A DNA stretch of 13,253 nucleotides. It comes from an uncultured Alphaproteobacteria bacterium (GTDB taxonomy: Bacteria > Pseudomonadota > Alphaproteobacteria > Micavibrionales > Micavibrionaceae). Shown piece by piece: positions 1-7,277 of the stretch. The stretch lies in the NCBI GenBank assembly GCA_946481105.1, contig CAMLMM010000056.1, positions 1 to 13,253 of the forward strand, read 5' to 3'. The number at the start of each line of letters is the position of its first letter. The first letter of the stretch is position 1. Made by a program: the position numbers and the translations under genes. The notes below the pieces were generated by a model, which saw only the letters and a program-made list of their open reading frames with translations, ran no database searches and was not told where the DNA came from.

Positions 1-1395
1 CTCGTCGGTGGGGACGGGAATGACGAACTGTACAGCGGGGATGGCAATGATACGCTCTATGGCGGCAGTGGTGATGACCTGCTCTATGGCAGTCTCGGCA
101 ATGATACGTATTTCTTTACCTCGGGCACGGATACGATAGAAGATACGGGCGGCACGGATATCCTCACCCTGGCTGATAATATCACGCTGGAAGAGGTAAC
201 TTTTACAATTAACAACAATAATCTGGTGATCGGCCTGACCGGTGCAACGGCGGGGACGATTGTTCTGACCAACCATATGCTGGGGGGTGCATCAGCCATC
301 GAAACCCTGCGTTTTGATGATGGCACAGACTTTAATCTGGCGAACTATACCACATGGCTGCGCGGCGCAGGCGGCACGCTGAATGGGACCGTGGCGGCTG
401 ATTTTATGCTCGGGTCGGCTCTAACTGATACGCTGGATGGGTCAAGCGGAAATGACATAATTTACGGCATGGCCGGGGTCGATACGCTGTATGGCGGGGC
501 AGACAGTGACACGCTACACGGTGGCAGCGGCAACGATACTATCTATGCCTATAGTAATAACGGGTCAGATGCCAGCAATGACATTGCCTATGGCGATGAC
601 GGGGATGACGATCTCTATGGCAGTAATGGCCATGACACCTTGTATGGGGGAGCCGGTATTGATGTCCTCAAAGGCGGCCTGGGCAATGACAGCCTGTATG
701 GCGATGCCGGGGATGATGAGGTGCGCGGTGATGACGGGGATGATCAGCTGTTCGGGGGTGATGGCGTTGACAAACTCATTGCCGGGGCCGGGGATGATAC
801 GCTGTATGGCGGGTATGATGATGACTCGGTCTATGCCGGCGATGGCATTGATACTATCTATGGCGAGTCCGGGAAAGATACATTGCGTGGTGAGAACGGC
901 AACGACTACATAAATGGCGGGGCCGGGGACGATGTCATCTATGGCGGCAACAGCACGAGCGGCTCTGCCGCCGATGGGGATGACGTTATTGTGGCAGGTT
1001 CCGGCAATGACACTATTTATGCCGGTGGGGGGAATGACATTATCAATGGCGGAAATGGTCTGGACTATTTCTATGGCGGGTATGGGAGCGATACGTTCCG
1101 GTTTACGGCAGAACTTCTGGAAGACTCGAAGATCGATGATGTGGACCGGATCAAGGATTGGGGTACGGGTGGTGCCACAGACAAGCTGACGATTGAGGGG
1201 ATACTGATCGGCTATGACCCGGTAAACTCGGCGATCAGTGATTTTGTTCACTCCACCTATAACGGCTCAACAACGATCTCGGTCGACCGTGATGGGGCAG
1301 GAACCAGCTATCAGTTCGCCGATATGGTTGTGGTTGAGAGTAAAAACCTCAACATCGCTACCATGATGACTAACGGGCAGCTTGAGGTGATTTAG
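1..1395 (+). CDS. RTX calcium-binding exoprotein, C-terminal part (5' end outside window)
   Basis: The reading frame is open from base 1 to the TAG at 1393-1395, giving 464 residues with no start in view. It begins in RTX nonapeptides (GGDGNDELY, GDGNDTLYG). A non-repeat segment follows at about 120-360 (TDTIEDTGGTDILTLADN onward), resembling the haemolysin-type calcium-binding-related domain. A long second block of GGxGxDxLx repeats spans about 420-1090. The last 100 residues, with FRFTAELLEDS and the SVDRDGAGTSYQFADMVV stretch, resemble the C-terminal target domain of type I-secreted RTX proteins. Such proteins are exported unfolded through an ABC-MFP-TolC channel and fold on binding calcium outside. 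Repeats at both ends show that only the tail is present, so the activity (adhesin, S-layer, enzyme or toxin) cannot be told. No secretion genes are visible. It converges on the next gene with 9 bp between stops and no visible terminator. Confidence 0.93.
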   Translation, partial: LVGGDGNDELYSGDGNDTLYGGSGDDLLYGSLGNDTYFFTSGTDTIEDTGGTDILTLADNITLEEVTFTINNNNLVIGLTGATAGTIVLTNHMLGGASAIETLRFDDGTDFNLANYTTWLRGAGGTLNGTVAADFMLGSALTDTLDGSSGNDIIYGMAGVDTLYGGADSDTLHGGSGNDTIYAYSNNGSDASNDIAYGDDGDDDLYGSNGHDTLYGGAGIDVLKGGLGNDSLYGDAGDDEVRGDDGDDQLFGGDGVDKLIAGAGDDTLYGGYDDDSVYAGDGIDTIYGESGKDTLRGENGNDYINGGAGDDVIYGGNSTSGSAADGDDVIVAGSGNDTIYAGGGNDIINGGNGLDYFYGGYGSDTFRFTAELLEDSKIDDVDRIKDWGTGGATDKLTIEGILIGYDPVNSAISDFVHSTYNGSTTISVDRDGAGTSYQFADMVVVESKNLNIATMMTNGQLEVI

Positions 1396-1404
1396 AATTG
1401 ATAA

Positions 1405-1698
1405 TTAGTTTACGAATGTACAACGATAATCAGCGCGCCAATTCTTTTGCTTCATCAATTGGACCATTTCATTCTGACAGCCTGACATATTATCGGCATA
1501 ACCGAAAATTAAGCCTATTTTAGCCCAGGCACCTAAGACTGTGAGTTTTTCGAGATAGACTGGTTTGTTGTTTTCATGGTTAGATGAGTAATCTTCAATG
1601 AACTGCTTAAGATATCCTGTTTGATCATTAAGTTGGTTATCTGCATTAGCATGAAGGCTGAAAATTAAAAGCAATAGACATATGAGTAATATTTTCAT
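1405..1698 (-). CDS. small secreted protein with two cysteines, function unknown
   Basis: This encodes 97 residues. A short positive N-terminus and a leucine-rich core (MKILLICLLLLIFSLHANA) are followed by an A-x-A cleavage site before DNQ, so a Sec signal peptide of about 19 residues is likely. The mature part of about 78 residues contains a GYADN motif, then MSGCQNE and a terminal YRCTFVN. Its only two cysteines could form a disulfide in the periplasm or outside. The start is supported by GGGAG (1709-1713 on this strand), 10 nt before ATG. The gene lies directly downstream of a structured RNA with an intrinsic terminator, so it may be expressed only by read-through. I do not recognise a named family. 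It could be a periplasmic stress or binding protein, or cargo of the neighbouring island. Confidence 0.75.
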   Translation of the reverse strand: MKILLICLLLLIFSLHANADNQLNDQTGYLKQFIEDYSSNHENNKPVYLEKLTVLGAWAKIGLIFGYADNMSGCQNEMVQLMKQKNWRADYRCTFVN

Positions 1699-1716
1699 TT
1701 TTTAGATTCTCCCGAA

Positions 1717-1744
1717 TAAAAAATCACCAGTGGGCTCTGGTGAT
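1717..1744 (-). terminator. intrinsic terminator in front of the small secreted-protein gene
   Basis: On the minus strand an 8-bp perfect stem ATCACCAG/CTGGTGAT (arms 1737-1744 and 1723-1730) closes a 6-nt loop and is followed at once by six T residues and then ATT. This is a complete Rho-independent terminator read leftwards. No T tract follows in the plus direction. Its distal end lies only 18 nt from the ATG of the 97-residue gene. Confidence 0.85.
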
Positions 1745-1900
1745 CGGGAAGTTGATATCCGTGCAATGACGGCGCAGCGTATTTACGCTATGCGCTATTG
1801 TATTCCGCCGCCTTCCCAACCGGAGTCGAAAAAGCAGCATCGTTTAACGGCATGATGCTAAGTTGCCGCATTGCAGGGGATATCAAGCCCCGAACCGTTG
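1745..1900 (-). ncRNA. candidate structured RNA: leader (riboswitch-like) or small RNA
   Basis: Three stacked helices close the region. Bases 1745-1760 pair with 1878-1892 (CGGG, a bulge/mismatch, then TTGATATCC with GGATATCAA). Bases 1762-1768 pair with 1869-1875 (TGCAATG/CATTGCA). Bases 1770-1773 pair with 1865-1868 (CGGC/GCCG). Within this rod of about 24 bp lie smaller hairpins, AGCATC/GATGCT and AGCGT/ACGCT. The minus-strand terminator abuts the 3' side, giving a transcript of roughly 175 nt with the 5' end near 1895-1905. No convincing promoter was found. It contains no ORF of note and matches no riboswitch consensus I know (not TPP, cobalamin, FMN or glycine). The length and rod shape would also suit a 6S-like RNA, but the sequence is not recognisably 6S. 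Confidence 0.55.
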
Positions 1901-2046
1901 CCCAGAACGATCTAAAATCACTGTAGAACATTATGAATTTATAAAAAAGAGCTGATTTTACTTTGAAACTGACAAGTGCGAGATTTTTATGGGATCACTA
2001 TGGCAATATCTGGGGTTCTCTACCTTTATGGGGGTTGCGAAAAGAG
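1893..2046. other. intergenic stretch between the structured RNA and the island genes
   Basis: No gene is supported here. The left part must hold the promoter of the structured RNA. A TTCATA/TAGATC pair spaced 17 bp on the minus strand (about 1908-1936) is the only candidate and is weak. I see no copy of the tRNA-Cys 3' end, which would mark the far end of the island. Confidence 0.3.
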
Positions 2047-2090
2047 GGCGCATGAATTTTTTTGATGTAAAAATCATAGCATCATGCGCC
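2047..2090. repeat. 9-bp perfect inverted repeat at the end of the island operon
   Basis: GGCGCATGA (2047-2055) and TCATGCGCC (2082-2090) are perfect inverted arms separated by 26 AT-rich bases. The right arm lies inside the last codons of the 126-residue gene, which stops at 2074. The loop is long and no T tract follows on the minus strand, so it is not a typical terminator. It may stabilise the 3' end of the operon transcript or be a protein-binding or replication site. Confidence 0.45.
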
Positions 2091-2454
2091 GATACCAGGT
2101 GGGCAAGTCTGGGTAATATGCGCTTAGACAGCGCATAATTTTTGCTTTATCGGTGGGACAAAGCTCATCATAAGGCAACTGTCTAATCCGCTGAATTTCG
2201 TCTCTATACGGTCTGCCGCTCCACTTATAGATGAATTCTGGCCTGCCGATTTTTGATCTCGTGAGATGCCTTGGTTTGTGCGCTCTTAAAATGTGACCGC
2301 TCTTGATCAAACGTATCAGATCGCAAGTTGGCTTTATATCCCGTCCCAGCTCCGCTTTCAGATGTGCAGTGATTGCACGCGAAGAAAACCATTTTTGGGA
2401 ATTAGCAGTCATCAACCGCATGATTGATCCTTTGACGGATTGCAATTCTTTCAT
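2074..2454 (-). CDS. small winged-helix-like protein of the island, possible regulator
   Basis: This encodes 126 residues. The N-terminal half reads as a helix-turn-helix (WFSSRAITAHLKAELG, then a recognition-helix-like CDLIRLIKSGHILRA), followed by a basic segment and GRPEFIYKW, which looks like a wing. The C-terminal third (YDELCPTDKAKIMRCLSAYY) is helical and not assigned. AAGGA lies 7 nt before the ATG, a good ribosome site. It is the last gene of the minus-strand block, 62 bp after the primase-helicase gene, and may share its transcript. A DNA-binding or transcriptional control role in the island is inference from fold-like pattern only. The short gap upstream carries three imperfect 8-9 bp units (GGGTTAATC, GGGTTTATC, GGATAATC at about 2493-2518) that could be an operator. 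Confidence 0.7.
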   Translation of the reverse strand: MKELQSVKGSIMRLMTANSQKWFSSRAITAHLKAELGRDIKPTCDLIRLIKSGHILRAHKPRHLTRSKIGRPEFIYKWSGRPYRDEIQRIRQLPYDELCPTDKAKIMRCLSAYYPDLPTWYRRMML

Positions 2455-2516
2455 TTTTTAATCCTTTGTGTATTTTCTAAGATTGAAGCAGGATTATCCG
2501 ATAAACCCGATTAACC

Positions 2517-4955
2517 CTATTTGACTTCCTCCACCCTCCACAGGACAGTATTCGTGCTGACACTGGCGCGGGTAAATCTGAGGCCGTTGACGACTTTTCC
2601 CTCATTGCGCTTGATCCAGCGTCCGAGACGCGTATTGTTGATCGTGCCGTATTTATCACCCGCAATTTCTTTCAGGATGTCATCTCCATCAAACTCCCTT
2701 TCGCCAGCGTCCAGAGCGAAAGACGCGATTTTCGTGGGTGTATTGCCGCATGAATCCCACCAAAGTTTCAGGATGCGTCCCAGAAGTTCCCGATCGGGAT
2801 CATCCATGATCGTGTTGAACAGGGATTGTACAGGGTCAGGCAATCCCAGCCAGAGGAGTGGTTGTCGGCAAAAATCTGACCATGCGCCGTAGCTGGCGAC
2901 TGTCCGACATTCGGTTTTCGGCCTGCCCGCGACGATCCATGCTCTGATGATTGTCAGGGCGTAGGATACATATTCACGCCGCTGTTGGTACAACATCCCC
3001 AGCAGATCGGGGTTTTTGAATGTCCGTGCGGCGGGAATTTCACAGACCGGATCAAGATTGATCGTGATGCAGCGGCGGGCCATATCCCGCACCGGCCCGA
3101 CATTGTTACCGCTGGAAAGAAAAAGGGCGCGGGTGCTGACCGATACCGTTTTTGACACGCCCAGAATGCGCCCCGTCATATATTCTGAAGTCAGGGCCGC
3201 GCACAGGCTTTTATGCGCGATAAGATCGCCTGTCAGATTGTCAAACTCGATTACTGAGGCCCCGCGCATAAATTCAGCCAACAGGACTTTTCGGCATTCC
3301 TCATCGTCTTGCGGAAAGGTCGTCGGCGTTCCTGTTTGATCGGACGCGAATCCTCCAACAATACGGCAAAGATAGGATTTGCCGGAACTGATTTGAGGGG
3401 CTTTGACATGAAACATGGGCGCAAGTGGCAGGCTAGGGCGAATAGTCGCCGTCAGCATTCCACATATCGCAGCAGAGCGATCATATTCATTCTTGAAGGG
3501 GAATTCTTCGACAAGGGCCTGTAATTTTCTCAGGGCATCTCGCGCTTGCGCTTCCGTAGGATGTTCCGGAACCGAGAAATTTTCCGATTTGAACGCCCCA
3601 TACATACCCGTTGCAGCGTCATAACCTGAAACGGTTGCAAGACTTCCATCGTTTCGCAGATAGGGTTGATGGGCAATGCCGTTTAGTGCGGGAAGATGCT
3701 GATAGTCTTCCGCCCCGTCCACTGCCATACAAATACGTTCGGGCGGATCGCACTTGATACGTCCTCCGGCTCGACCATCGAATTTCTCCCAAACGGCAAC
3801 GCTGGAAAGAGCCGAAACAAGAGCATTCTTTGGTAAGGTTTTGATTGTTGTTTCATGCGTGATGGGATCGTGCTTGACCGTAGAGATTGTCCCGCCCCTT
3901 TGAAAATAGCGTCCCGTAGCGGCAAGTTCTTTTTCGGCGCACTCAACAATGTGATGAATTTCGCCCTGCACCAGTCGGATCGTTGGCTTTGTGCGCGTAT
4001 CGGCAACATTCAAGCCCAGGTATTCAAGAAGAGTATGAATGTTTCTTCCTTTGCAGTGACCGTGAAAGCAGTGAAAGCCGCCGATAGGGAAATTCGGGCC
4101 AGGCTCAAAATAACCCGTGCCGCCGTCAATCTCGCCTGTGTGTTCATGACACCAAGGGCAGGTCATGTCATGCTTTCCGTCACCAAGGGCGGATTTGTAC
4201 AGATTGCGCTTTGCCAACTCTGCCAGAATGCGGTTTTCATGCGGACGTGGAATGTAAATGGGATCGCCCTCATTCAATGCCCGCACTATCTGTACTTTCT
4301 CCTGGCCCTTGACTGCCGTGCTGATACTCAATCCTAGCCCGTTGATCAACTGCCCGATTGTAAACATGCGCTCAGGATGCCATTCCTCCAATTCGCATTG
4401 AAAGACCGGATCATGCTTTCCGTTGATTCCGACCGGCAACCTCGCCAGTCTCGTGCATGGCCCGCTGAGTCCAGGATCACACAATCCGGCCTCAATGATC
4501 GCATTCATCAAATTGTCAGCGGCTTTTGAATGCGTGATGGGGGCTTTCAAGATATAGCCGTATTGATAGTTTCCAAATGATGTTTCGTTTTTCCATGACG
4601 GCTTTAAACCGATAGAATCAGTGGGAATTTTTGTGCCGATGTCATCCAAAACAATCGCACACAGTCCCCAAAACTGTTTCTTTTTCCTCTGATATTTACC
4701 GCTTCCATCAGGGTTAAAAGCCGATAAAGTCATATAATTATTGTTGTGCTCTGAAATATCCGCATAATCGTATAATGGTTCGGCATCCCAAAAACCCTTT
4801 GGTTTAAAATCAGGATTGCCCGCTGAACTTACGATCATACCACGAACGTCCTCCGGCAAGTCACGGAATATCGCCTGTAAAAATTCTTGATTTGTGATCG
4901 AATAGGGTTTGTCGGTTTTATCGGGTCTGATCGCCTCGGTTTGAAGATTTGTCAT
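2517..4955 (-). CDS. island primase-helicase (AEP-like primase, zinc motif, AAA+/SF3-like helicase)
   Basis: This encodes 812 residues and probably both primes and unwinds DNA for island replication. Order of parts: residues about 95-210 contain IVLDDIG (D104, D105) and CTRLARLPVGING, consistent with an archaeo-eukaryotic primase-like fold. Residues 266-301 hold a zinc-binding cluster (CPWC, then HCFHGHC). Residues about 490-640 form an ATPase with Walker A APQISSGKS (K526), Walker B ASVIEFDN (D572), a sensor stretch LFLSSGNN and MARRC as possible arginine finger. The last 55 residues (TRLGRWIKRNEGKVVNGLRF) look like a winged helix. The first glycine of a classical GxxxxGKS is replaced. The ATG at 4955 is chosen because it overlaps the stop of the preceding gene (ATGA) and has GGGGAG upstream; a longer frame to 4994 exists but lacks this support. 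Confidence 0.85.
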   Translation of the reverse strand: MTNLQTEAIRPDKTDKPYSITNQEFLQAIFRDLPEDVRGMIVSSAGNPDFKPKGFWDAEPLYDYADISEHNNNYMTLSAFNPDGSGKYQRKKKQFWGLCAIVLDDIGTKIPTDSIGLKPSWKNETSFGNYQYGYILKAPITHSKAADNLMNAIIEAGLCDPGLSGPCTRLARLPVGINGKHDPVFQCELEEWHPERMFTIGQLINGLGLSISTAVKGQEKVQIVRALNEGDPIYIPRPHENRILAELAKRNLYKSALGDGKHDMTCPWCHEHTGEIDGGTGYFEPGPNFPIGGFHCFHGHCKGRNIHTLLEYLGLNVADTRTKPTIRLVQGEIHHIVECAEKELAATGRYFQRGGTISTVKHDPITHETTIKTLPKNALVSALSSVAVWEKFDGRAGGRIKCDPPERICMAVDGAEDYQHLPALNGIAHQPYLRNDGSLATVSGYDAATGMYGAFKSENFSVPEHPTEAQARDALRKLQALVEEFPFKNEYDRSAAICGMLTATIRPSLPLAPMFHVKAPQISSGKSYLCRIVGGFASDQTGTPTTFPQDDEECRKVLLAEFMRGASVIEFDNLTGDLIAHKSLCAALTSEYMTGRILGVSKTVSVSTRALFLSSGNNVGPVRDMARRCITINLDPVCEIPAARTFKNPDLLGMLYQQRREYVSYALTIIRAWIVAGRPKTECRTVASYGAWSDFCRQPLLWLGLPDPVQSLFNTIMDDPDRELLGRILKLWWDSCGNTPTKIASFALDAGEREFDGDDILKEIAGDKYGTINNTRLGRWIKRNEGKVVNGLRFTRASVSTNTVLWRVEEVK

Positions 4956-5152
4956 TGAGCATTCTCCCCAATGGCAGGAAGACTGTTGAGCCATTCGGAA
5001 AGTGCTTCGGCTGTAACCAGCGTCCGCTTGCCCAGTTTGATCGCACGGAGGCGACCGGCTTTAATTTCGGCATAAAGTTTTGTCCGGCCCGTGTGAGAGG
5101 CTTTTGCTGCCGCATCTATCGAATAGGCAACAATATCGCTAGGATTTTGCAT
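4952..5152 (-). CDS. AlpA-like helix-turn-helix excisionase/regulator
   Basis: This encodes 66 residues. The core (YSIDAAAKASHTGRTKLYAEIKAGRLRAIKLGKRTLVTAEALSEWLNSL) fits the excisionase/MerR-like winged helix: HTH, KLYAEIKAGRLRAIKLGKRTLV for recognition helix and wing, then a final helix. In P4-like elements AlpA proteins activate or modulate integrase and help excision. AGGAG at 5160-5164 lies 7 nt before the ATG. Its stop overlaps the primase-helicase start by 4 bp, so the two are probably translationally coupled. The 117-bp gap upstream contains an inverted repeat that could be its operator. Excisionase and transcription factor roles cannot be told apart from sequence. Confidence 0.85.
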   Translation of the reverse strand: MQNPSDIVAYSIDAAAKASHTGRTKLYAEIKAGRLRAIKLGKRTLVTAEALSEWLNSLPAIGENAQ

Positions 5153-5233
5153 TGATAAACTCCTGTGTCATGTACGGCTGAATTGCCGCGCACATTCGAT
5201 TATTCACAGGCGTTCGGATGTGTCATTTTCATA

Positions 5234-5270
5234 AATTGCACAAAATAGTCTAAGATAATTATGTGCAAAT
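5234..5270. promoter_or_regulatory. inverted repeat upstream of the alpA-like gene, candidate operator
   Basis: TTGCACA (5236-5242) and TGTGCAA (5262-5268) are perfect inverted arms with a 19-bp AT-rich centre, flanked by AATT-like ends that extend the match with one bulge. The site lies about 85 bp upstream of the alpA-like start and touches the stop codon of the 171-residue gene. On the minus strand TTGCAC and TATTTT are 15 bp apart, a poor promoter-like pair, so the repeat could overlap a promoter for alpA and the primase-helicase. Confidence 0.45.
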
Positions 5271-5785
5271 TATTTGGTGTTTACGATAAATTCATCAGGA
5301 TCAAAAGGGGCGTTTTCAAGTTTCTTGAATTCGTCTTGCGCCAACCGTTTAAGCTGTTCCCTGTTATGTTTATTTTTCAAGATGCCCCTGATTTTGCTGG
5401 GCTTGATTTTTTTGCCGTATTTTTCTGACAGGCTATCGGCAATAAAATTGTGTACTTCGTTATCATAAAAATCGGGTAATTGCTTATATGTCGTTTCCTT
5501 GGTTTTGTCCTTATCATTAAAAATTTCAACCCGTCCAAAATCCGTATATAGCGCATATTGTCGCCTGACATCATCAACGAATTCATCTTGATTAGCCTTA
5601 CGCCCCGACCTATAGCGTTGATTTACATCCACGCCGCACATCGCCAGAATCAGCTTTTGCCAGCCGACAAGCCCAACACCGCCCTGAATGCTAAATTTTT
5701 CAATGCCGTGCCGGTTACACAATTCATTAAGCCTGTCTTGTGCCGCTTGTATTTCGTCATTGGTCATGCTTTGAAAGACAGACAT
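5270..5785 (-). CDS. unrecognised island protein between integrase and AlpA
   Basis: This encodes 171 residues from the ATG at 5785. A TTG one codon upstream is possible but less likely. The start is 6 nt after the integrase stop, so it is probably co-transcribed with int; only a weak AAGAGA-like ribosome site is present. The sequence is charged and soluble, with no signal peptide or membrane segment. The N-terminus (MTNDEIQAAQDRLNELCNRHGI) is helical. The middle contains QRYRSGRKANQDEFVDDVRRQY, and the lysine-rich stretch KKIKPSKIRGILKNKHNREQ could form a small DNA-binding helical unit. AT content is visibly higher than in the host genes. I do not recognise a family. Its place suggests excision control, immunity or host interference, but this is inference. 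Confidence 0.75.
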   Translation of the reverse strand: MSVFQSMTNDEIQAAQDRLNELCNRHGIEKFSIQGGVGLVGWQKLILAMCGVDVNQRYRSGRKANQDEFVDDVRRQYALYTDFGRVEIFNDKDKTKETTYKQLPDFYDNEVHNFIADSLSEKYGKKIKPSKIRGILKNKHNREQLKRLAQDEFKKLENAPFDPDEFIVNTK

Positions 5786-5791
5786 CAAAAA

Positions 5792-7027
5792 TTATCTCTT
5801 TCTTCCAGCCTTAAAGTTTGGTGTGATAATCTGGCCTTTCGCGGCAACGGTATCAAGATAATCACTCCATTCCTGCATCATCACGGTACGCTGTTGCAGG
5901 AATTGGGCACGGTTATAAGCTTCACCGAGGGGGCCCGCCGCCTTGTGCGCCAACTGACATTCGATGACATCGGGTTCATAGTCCAGCTTTTCACGGATAG
6001 CAGTCCGTGCCAGAGCACGAAATCCGTGTGCGGTCATACGATCTTTAAATCCCAGTTTTTGCAGGGCAATTCTAACCGTCCCGTCGCTCATAGGGTCTTT
6101 GGGACGTATCTGGCTTGGGAATACCAAATTGGTGCTGAGGTGGTTTGTTTCCTCTTTTTGTTCCTTCAAAATTTCAATCGCTTGGCGGGAGAGGGGAACA
6201 ATATGATCGCGGCGCATTTTCATACGCTCTGCCGGAATGAGCCATCGTTTAGCTTGAAAGTCAATTTCATCCCAAGTTGCTTTGCGCAGTTCCCCAGGGC
6301 GAACGAATGTCAGCAGGGATAGCTTGATGGCGCGGCGTGTACGGGCATAAAGACGGGCATCATTACGCTCTAAAGCAGCCAGTAGTTCGGGGATTTCTTT
6401 TGTTTCTATGGCCGCAAAATGTTCTGTTTTTCTGGTTTTCAATGCACCTTGCAGATCACGTGAGGGGTCGTGTTTGCATCGGCCTGTCTGGATGCCATAA
6501 CGAAATACCTGCCCGCATAATTGCCGTGTGCGTCCGGCTATATCCAATGCACCGCGCTTTTCGATTTTCCTGAGCATGTCCAGCAGGTGCAAGGCTTCCA
6601 GATCGGCGATAGAGTCAGAACCGATATAAGGAAAAACATCGGTTTCCAAACGGTGCAGGACATTTTGTGTATGGTTTTCGCTCCACCGGCTTTTTTGATT
6701 GTCGTGCCATTCGCGGGCAATGGCTTCAAAGGTGTTATTGGCATTAATTGTTGCTTTGCGCTTTTCGTGCCGTTTGTTTTTTGATGGATCAATACCGTCC
6801 TTGAGCAGCTTTCTCGCTTGCGCTCTGGCCTCCCGTGCGTCTTTCAGGGTGATTTCAGGATATATGCCTATGGCGAGCAGCTTTTGTTTGCCGTGAATCC
6901 TGTAGGCCATGCGCCAGTATTTTGAGCCGTTCGGCCTGATTTCGAGATACATGCCTTGCCCATCAGTTAGCTTATAGGCTGTTTCCTTGGGTTTTGCATT
7001 CGCACAAGCCGTATTGGTCAGCTTCAT
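5792..7027 (-). CDS. int: P4-type tyrosine integrase (DUF4102 arm-binding N-terminus)
   Basis: This encodes 411 residues, the usual length for the family. Residues 1-90 form the DUF4102 arm-binding domain (KLTDGQGMYLEIRPNGSKYW; LAIGIYPEITLKDAR). Residues about 98-185 are the SAM-like core-binding domain. The catalytic domain carries R243 in FVRPGELR, a lysine near 270 (RMKMRRDH), H334 and R337 in AHGFR, H361 in LAHK and the nucleophile Y371 in EAYNRAQF, so all expected catalytic residues are present and the enzyme looks intact. It would recombine the element with the adjacent tRNA-Cys gene. No Shine-Dalgarno is seen before the ATG; instead a repeated TTGGTA motif abuts it. An extended -10 (TGATATAAG; TATAAG at 7058-7063) lies between the repeat copies, suggesting that a protein binding them controls int. 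Confidence 0.95.
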   Translation of the reverse strand: MKLTNTACANAKPKETAYKLTDGQGMYLEIRPNGSKYWRMAYRIHGKQKLLAIGIYPEITLKDAREARAQARKLLKDGIDPSKNKRHEKRKATINANNTFEAIAREWHDNQKSRWSENHTQNVLHRLETDVFPYIGSDSIADLEALHLLDMLRKIEKRGALDIAGRTRQLCGQVFRYGIQTGRCKHDPSRDLQGALKTRKTEHFAAIETKEIPELLAALERNDARLYARTRRAIKLSLLTFVRPGELRKATWDEIDFQAKRWLIPAERMKMRRDHIVPLSRQAIEILKEQKEETNHLSTNLVFPSQIRPKDPMSDGTVRIALQKLGFKDRMTAHGFRALARTAIREKLDYEPDVIECQLAHKAAGPLGEAYNRAQFLQQRTVMMQEWSDYLDTVAAKGQIITPNFKAGRKR

Positions 7028-7083
7028 TTTGTTGGTATCTTTTTGTTGGTATTTGACCTTATATCAACAAATGTACCAACATT
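7027..7083. promoter_or_regulatory. int: four-copy TTTGTTGGTA array over the integrase promoter and start
   Basis: Two direct copies of TTTTGTTGGTAT lie at 7027-7038 and 7041-7052. Two inverted copies lie at 7062-7071 (TATCAACAAA, one mismatch) and 7074-7083 (TACCAACATT). On the minus strand the extended -10 TGATATAAG falls between the pairs, and transcription would start near 7050, inside a copy. The array could be arm-type integrase sites, an operator, or both. Confidence 0.6.
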
Positions 7084-7118
7084 TTTGACGGCTGTAAATG
7101 AATGCGGGTGAGTGCAGG

Positions 7119-7179: not shown

Positions 7180-7203
7180 AATGAACGTGGGGAAAGTAGA
7201 TAA

Positions 7204-7277
7204 TGGAGGCACGAGCCGGAATCGAACCGGCGTGGGAGCTTTTGCAGAGCTCAGCCTGACCACTCGGCCATCGCGCC
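7204..7277 (-). tRNA. tRNA-Cys (GCA)
   Basis: The 74-nt gene folds as a full cloverleaf. The acceptor GGCGCGA pairs with TCGTGCC (one G-T pair), with discriminator T and an encoded CCA (7204-7206 on the complement). The anticodon stem GAGCT/AGCTC closes the loop CTGCAAA, giving anticodon GCA. The T arm contains CCGGTTCGATTCCGG. The 3' end points toward the integrase gene about 180 bp away, and the intact gene with encoded CCA suggests the island restores the tRNA 3' end on integration. Confidence 0.97.

Follow-up and report, generated by a model that had tools for sequence, protein, structure and literature searches.

A structured leader RNA related to sRNA-Xcc1 as a candidate gate of cargo genes in an alphaproteobacterial mobile element

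Introduction

The CI RNA of P4 is carried by a satellite of the integrase/AlpA type, and complementary copies located upstream and downstream within one leader cause early termination. The RNA described here resembles it by this description.

The C4 RNAs of phages P1 and P7 (RF01695; c4-2, RF02944) are cotranscribed upstream of their target and pair over its ribosome-binding site (RBS). According to the accessible parts of the sources, RNase P cleaves C4 RNA, which acts by RBS occlusion (PMC5320573, PMC8198154), and Acinetobacter genomes contain many copies (PMC5320573). IsrK of Gifsy-1 (RF01394) is a small RNA that ends at a terminator; RNA polymerase partly reads through this terminator into a translationally locked mRNA, and IsrK in trans activates translation via an upstream ORF, as far as the accessible text describes (PMC4825925).

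sRNA-Xcc1 (RF02221) was found by cloning, Northern blotting and RACE as an RNA of 88 nt (PMC2996969). It travels in integron cassettes and is linked to symE, and the accessible text of the report on these cassettes leaves its 'divergent regulatory mechanism' open (PMC12444791). In Xylella, seven sRNA-Xcc1 homologues are transcribed and were read as possible virulence sRNAs, and a genome table in the same paper places C4, isrK and sRNA-Xcc1 within 400 bp (PMC12189769). As far as the accessible literature goes, the family stands in Rfam and in papers on plant pathogens without an agreed mechanism; no RBS-gating role for sRNA-Xcc1 was found in that literature, in which few subscription papers are included and the sRNA-Xcc1 publication of 2011 is not.

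Results

Genomic context of the RNA locus

The window, i.e., the whole analyzed stretch of 13,253 nucleotides from an uncultured member of the Alphaproteobacteria (contig CAMLMM010000056.1), carries a minus-strand gene run that begins with a tyrosine integrase (5792-7027; PF00589, E 4.4e-24) adjoining tRNA-Cys (7204-7277). The run includes an HTH_17 protein (4952-5152; PF12728, E 4.7e-08), which we take to be AlpA-like, an 825-aa protein with no Pfam match (2517-4994), presumably primase/helicase-like, and a 126-aa element protein for which no family is named (2074-2454). Its last gene (1405-1698) is the cargo gene, encoding a 97-aa secreted protein with a signal peptide recognized by eye and no Pfam match. 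We infer that the run is an integrative element; a search of 1-7100 for its left boundary yielded no exact copy, at least 11 nt long, of any part of 7196-7245. The plus strand has an ORF with RTX/haemolysin-type calcium-binding repeats (226-1395, seven HemolysinCabind stretches), the end of which is 10 bp away from that of the 97-aa gene.

Between the 126-aa gene and the cargo gene lies a leader or small RNA locus of about 200 nt on the minus strand (1717-1930, with presumed transcript ends). The minus strand of 1700-1920 folds at -89.3 kcal/mol against a shuffle mean of -62.8 (z -6.02; 0 of 200 shuffles as good), and the plus strand of the same stretch also folds strongly (z -4.4), as expected for inverted repeats. 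The locus ends in an intrinsic terminator (1717-1745) composed of a 9-bp stem (1737-1745 with 1722-1730; -12.1 kcal/mol, z -5.2), a loop (1731-1736) and a U tract, i.e., a T tract on the minus strand. A terminator scan of 1300-2700 listed 5 sites versus 1.1 expected; one of them is weaker and falls within the RNA (1776-1796), on the plus strand. An earlier note, made from the sequence alone, had proposed a structured minus-strand RNA ending in a terminator before the 97-aa gene, and both the fold and the listed terminator bear this out.

Only 19 nt separate the run of six U from the ATG (1698), a gap that disfavors a separate promoter there; a promoter inside the RNA that serves the cargo gene is possible. 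The gap contains the Shine-Dalgarno sequence (SD) CGGGAG (1709-1714), complementary to CUUCCCG (1745-1751), the 3' strand of an acceptor-like stem described below, and the two are paired in the minimum free energy (MFE) structure; the complementarity in the window amounts to 6 pairs, one of them G-U. On the 5' side of the RNA, an A+T-rich conserved stretch (1918-1960, minus strand) presumably represents the promoter or start region, from which the window copy would be transcribed; the scan listed no sigma-70-like site in it.

The search with the 126-aa protein returned 31 rows, including the window's own, and led to two loci of alphaproteobacterial metagenome-assembled genomes with related elements (L001 and L002); no relative of this protein was confirmed in viral_contigs. 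In both loci the RNA follows the homologue of the 126-aa gene, in the same place as in the window; in L002 this homologue lies in two frames (L002:1604-1980). The 1918-1960 stretch is near-identical in the window, L001 and L002, and similar in a further locus, L119. The cargo, in turn, differs: L001 and L002 each have a 238-aa protein, not the 97-aa one; by eye, that of L001 resembles a lipoprotein and that of L002 a membrane protein. A weak GYAD..C motif is common to the 97-aa protein and a 110-aa ORF after the first cargo gene of L001 (L001:9470-9802; BLASTP E 0.005, single comparison).

Relation to sRNA-Xcc1

The sole Rfam match at the place and strand of the window RNA is sRNA-Xcc1 (1735-1820, minus strand), a weak, end-to-end alignment that covers model positions 1-87 completely and scores 35.2 bits, below the gathering score of 53 (E 0.0044 for the whole window). 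All outer-stem pairs in this alignment are standard, and the non-standard marks fall on inner pairs; the 10-bp stem equivalent to the outer stem covaries among the 39 aligned copies described below. The earlier note, which had recognized no riboswitch consensus, is thus to be amended by this sub-threshold match; 6S RNA, which it named as an alternative, dropped out, with no 6S covariance-model match at E<=5. A plus-strand match to snoZ112, a eukaryotic family, scored below its own threshold and was taken as chance.

The same model scores 34.9 bits (E 0.01) in L001 and 27.7 bits (E 0.52) in L002. Among relatives of the L001 genome, 71 of 143 contained RF02221 matches at E<=0.01, and 38 of these 71 had at least two copies, with a maximum of 8. 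At least three of the 143 were above the gathering score, and the matches listed ranged from about 28 to 58 bits. Such numerous intermediate scores bear out the sub-threshold match of the window. In a sample of the phylum, 51 of 299 genomes matched at E<=0.001 and 35 of 299 were above the gathering score, with the matches listed at about 35 to 77 bits; the L001 genome itself is counted in both sets. None of 14 control genomes had a match in the main genome searches, and a looser two-genome search (E<=1) gave a match in 2 of the 14. DNA similar to the window RNA was found in none of the plasmid, phage and E. coli collections, and a degenerate pattern of the RNA had no match in viral_contigs.

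The 3' 87 nt of the window RNA thus align end to end with the Rfam model, including AAUACAAUA and the outer stem, and the window RNA sits before a gene, as do its relatives at symE in Xanthomonas (PMC12444791) and at ant in phage Rac-SA53. In contrast to the model, which represents the 3' part only, from the 5' strand of the acceptor-like stem onward, the window RNA has a further 5' domain of about 100 nt with an H-type pseudoknot and a rod arm. It also differs in having a terminator downstream and cargo unlike SymE or antirepressors. The window RNA thus appears to be related to sRNA-Xcc1 as a diverged and longer form, and the sequences point to an architecture in the alphaproteobacterial branch more than twice as long as what Rfam models.

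RNA copies, their types and their cargo

A set of 113 RNA copies, mostly the best-scoring of the matches listed, was assigned by a motif test to type I (42 copies, including the window), type II (19) and type III, the phage type (52); by appearance, L060 and L068 in the type II set belong to type III, and a number of type III-filed copies found in relatives of the L001 genome (e.g., L106, L107, L114 and L115) belong to type I. Six duplicates (L037, L044, L046, L047, L053 and L055) and L085a were left out. The copies examined mostly lie directly before a small gene, and this gene varies. In 98 of the 113 copies, fewer than 70 nt separate the RNA domain from the start of the chosen downstream ORF, with a median of 40-41 nt in each type; these figures have no null, and the ORF choice behind them favors ATGs that are close by and preceded by an SD. 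The word TTGAC, which resembles the sigma-70 -35 element, is over-represented upstream of the RNA in all types (13/42 in type I, 3/19 in type II and 13/51 in type III; shuffle means 3.1, 1.1 and 3.5).

Type III copies differ in the placement of T-runs: a T-run lies 3' of the domain in 8/52, and a T-run (T5+) lies upstream of it instead in 22/52; copies such as L062 and L117 show a terminator-like hairpin with a T-run within the 5' half, ahead of the sRNA-Xcc1 domain. In phage Rac-SA53 a gap of about 35 nt separates the end of the match from ant, annotated as an antirepressor gene, and in Vibrio phage VPBES an annotated sRNA-Xcc1 lies 30 nt upstream of a small ORF, after which comes a gene for a DNA-binding protein. 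The cargo proteins scanned from 36 of 42 copies filed under type III matched SymE (4), Rha (2), P22_AR_N (1), KilA-N (1) and Bro-N (1). Among 58 cargo proteins from relatives of the L001 genome, L002 and the window (types I and II plus L106, L107, L114 and L115), 11 families were matched in all, with at most 4 members each, e.g., DUF2846 (4), Sel1 (2) and GIY-YIG (2); L091 and L099 were outside both scans. The 97-aa protein has three homologues in the protein database. Its only match in the 143 genomes, in G049 and probably one of these three, begins 37 nt downstream of an RF02221 match, and the terminator there is arranged as in the window.

Across 1700-1960, the window in comparison with L119 looks like a mosaic, with a type I core inside type-II-like flanks, terminator and cargo. 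The flanks resemble those of L119, L001 and L002, which have a type II core, and this suggests that RNA cores are exchanged between copies. At L041:9001-9369, two RNA copies start 278 bp apart, and the ORF chosen for the first extends into the second. In three genomes (L004, L110 and L112), type II RNA precedes one conserved protein of about 270 aa (about 70-74% identical); here the RNA was perhaps inherited rather than being a mobile copy.

Structure conserved among type I copies

Pairing was counted in an alignment of 39 type I copies including the window (L015, L040 and L097 of the 42 were omitted). The rod, the P2 hairpin, the pseudoknot, the P4 hairpin, the acceptor-like stem and the terminator exceed both shuffled and slid controls, over the latter with some advantage because one of the aligned copies served as the template for the structure. 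The rod joins a 5' arm ('seqA', 1869-1891) to a 3' arm ('seqB', 1752-1768), which in phage-type relatives is the strand complementary to the RBS. Its two main helices, which lie in the rod of the earlier note, pair perfectly in the window (1878-1886 with 1752-1760 and 1869-1875 with 1762-1768), and 13 of their 15 pairs are changed on both sides among the copies. P2 (1848-1868; 1864-1868 with 1848-1852) is paired in 98.4% of cells with double changes at 3/5 pairs, and its loop (1854-1859) pairs with 1836-1841 to form an H-type pseudoknot (1836-1859; 92.1% of cells, double changes at 4/7 pairs). The acceptor-like stem (1742-1821; 1812-1821 with 1742-1751) is paired in 94% of cells with double changes at 6/10 pairs, and the terminator in 95.9% with double changes at 10/10. 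The rod crosses the acceptor-like stem and thereby makes a second pseudoknot, and G-U is among the pair types in the covarying helices.

Of the two inner hairpins in the earlier note, the one at 1772-1795 (P4) is conserved: 1792-1795 with 1772-1775 and 1785-1789 with 1776-1780 are paired in 96% and 80% of cells. The other, P3 at about 1800-1836, is the MFE alternative to the acceptor-like stem and was set aside, since the equivalent helix is 70% paired with a double change at 1/8 pairs. Adjacent to P4, AAUACAAUA (1796-1804, minus strand) is conserved in type I and fits the RF02221 consensus. RCCA occurs near the 3' end of the acceptor-like stem in 27/42 type I, 17/19 type II and 16/52 type III copies (shuffle means 4.1-5.2), where its bases are shared with the terminator arm; by a strict helix-end criterion it was counted in 9, 4 and 2 copies, respectively.

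Covariation among the homologues, proposed earlier as a check, is strong and points to an RNA composed of a rod, an H-type pseudoknot and a terminator, with a stem that resembles a tRNA acceptor. The idea of a terminator-bearing leader directly before the gene, on an island, is thereby supported at the RNA level.

Complementarity to the downstream ribosome-binding site

For copies with 15-70 nt between the domain and the chosen ORF, pairing of the RNA with the RBS of its own gene was compared with that of swapped partners, in permutations that ignore phylogeny. The effect was largest in type III, where own partners gave -17.7 and swapped ones -12.5 kcal/mol (z -12.0, n=42) and the signal came from the rod 3' strand (z -10.8). 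In type I the overall z was -3.2, with the signal in the acceptor 3' strand (-4.5) and -0.7 for the rod 3' strand (n=38), and in type II the corresponding values were -2.6, -3.3 and -1.9 (n=17); a control in the coding region gave z -0.1 to 0.2. A scan of 33 twelve-base windows placed the type I peak at the acceptor strand (z -5.1; next -2.3). The type II peak lay at the same strand (-3.2, -3.3; one other window at -3.0), and the type III peak in the rod 3' strand (-8.5, -4.7; weaker upstream windows -3.7, -4.4). After thinning of related copies, z was -6.7 in type III (n=16), -3.2 in type I (n=14) and -2.6 in type II (n=6), and the control segment gave -0.4 to 1.9; the strictest thinning of type I left n=7 and z -1.9.

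The two arms of the rod also match better within than between copies in type I (z -5.3) and type III (z -12.6), and no matched complementarity of the arms was detected in type II (z -0.6). The RBS region of type III repeats the rod 5' arm, as seen by eye in two named phage leaders (L117 and L118), so that two partners compete for the rod 3' strand; the SD there lies between two complementary blocks, which differ from copy to copy. In types I and II the effect is modest, since the complementarity is short and the SD is GGAG-rich anyway. The sequences thus indicate an RNA complementary to the RBS of its own gene, strongly in type III, before antirepressors and SymE, and modestly in the type of the window.

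The 5' end and the terminator

The earlier note had also pointed to a switch between TGGGC near the 5' end and GCCCA in the terminator loop. The window holds both, TGGGC at 1900-1904 within a 5' segment (1898-1907, minus strand) equivalent to the site of a candidate antiterminator in type II; they form a match of 5 nt at most. The duplex calculation for the window picks partners other than TGGGC (-13.0), and the MFE structure puts it in a 5' hairpin. In type I, no 5'-end/terminator covariation was seen at that place (z -1.0). The corresponding places covary in type II, where the 5' segment and the terminator loop plus 3' arm gave z -5.7 (n=20, best of nine windows), and -5.6 (n=15) after removal of L005, L006, L119 and two misfiled copies; windows misplaced or only partly covering the 5' segment gave 0.4, 1.1 and -3.0. 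Predicted type II duplexes reach -18 kcal/mol or lower in 6 of 20 copies and -10 or lower in 11 of 20, and are weak in the other 9; in L119 and L052 the pairing extends over 11-12 bp. The proposed switch therefore finds support in type II, whose 5' end would be a candidate antiterminator, and not in the type to which the window belongs.

Discussion

Considering these patterns, we regard it as fairly probable that a leader/antisense RNA gates the cargo gene of the mobile element by early termination combined with RBS occlusion. Transcription from the upstream promoter would yield a pseudoknotted RNA of about 200 nt that mostly stops at the terminator, the first off state. In read-through transcripts, the cargo RBS would be covered by the RNA just upstream, the second off state, with the acceptor 3' strand as the covering strand in types I (the window) and II and the rod 3' strand in type III. 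In type II, pairing of the 5' end with the terminator loop and arm may favor read-through. The released RNA could act likewise in trans on sister copies, resulting in silencing akin to phage immunity.

This gate logic is C4- and IsrK-like by analogy, yet the models make the RNA a member of neither family. Among 13 loci, ten of them type III and the others the window, L001 and L002, neither C4 nor c4-2 matched at the RNA (E<=5 in the window, E<=0.5-1 in the 12 others), and IsrK had no match in the same loci. A sub-threshold c4-2 match (34.8 bits) lies at L064:2890-2958 on the minus strand, about 1.3 kb from the sRNA-Xcc1 copy of that locus. The likeness to C4 is one of working, i.e., cotranscription upstream of the target and pairing over the RBS, and extends to a stem whose 5' end, according to the accessible accounts, is the RNase P site in C4; RNase P-type processing of the 5' end may likewise occur here. 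Unlike C4, types I and II have a terminator between the RNA and the gene. With IsrK, as far as its accessible description goes, the RNA shares the layout of a small RNA ending at a terminator with partial read-through to a locked mRNA; the proposed effect of the window RNA is repression, whereas IsrK in trans activates, and by analogy the sign of the trans effect could be reversed here, to activation.

The trans-acting picture drawn in the sRNA-Xcc1 papers, whose accessible parts predict many distant targets (PMC2996969, PMC12189769), would apply if the true targets lay elsewhere, with the downstream gene a mere neighbor and the RBS complementarity a by-product of SD and anti-SD motifs. CUCCCC is indeed a generic anti-SD and GGGGAG an SD-like motif; however, pairing with the own partner beats swapped partners in each type, the type III blocks flank the SD and vary by copy, and the 19 nt between U tract and ATG are too few for a separate promoter there, so that we consider this explanation unlikely. 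A large conserved core, pseudoknots, a terminator and the possible type II antiterminator would also suit a ligand-sensing riboswitch or a protein-sensing attenuator. In this case the AAUACAAUA core plus pseudoknot would be the signal-binding part, and the pairing partners no more than its expression platform. Such sensing is decidedly unlikely given the cargo: a scan of 94 downstream proteins revealed no common metabolic theme, which does not support a metabolite riboswitch, and phage-type copies precede antirepressors and SymE-like genes.

The locus might instead be a structured DNA or RNA site for recombination or cassette-like cargo capture, with no regulatory role. Cargo differs between related elements, sRNA-Xcc1 is found in integron cassettes according to the accessible text (PMC12444791), and an integrase lies within 7 kb of 14 of the best 40 of 49 listed RNA matches versus 3.8% expected, in 12 genomes chosen for having copies. 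The U tract, the covariation of the terminator, the RBS complementarity and the G-U pairs nevertheless indicate an RNA, and a purely recombinational role appears highly improbable.

If the RNA gates its neighbor as proposed, the comparison places the target of sRNA-Xcc1 probably at the adjacent RBS, which would account for its travel with SymE and antirepressors. It is an even bet that sRNA-Xcc1 and its alphaproteobacterial kin form one large class of mobile-element gate RNAs, distinct from C4 and IsrK by sequence model, each with a complement to the RBS of the neighboring gene. Such a class would replace the picture of sRNA-Xcc1 as a virulence-linked trans-acting sRNA, and dozens of small genes of no named family, many of them near integrases, would be flagged as gated cargo. 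SymE toxins, phage antirepressors and secreted or membrane cargo would then be silent until a signal or titration by sister copies opens the gate.
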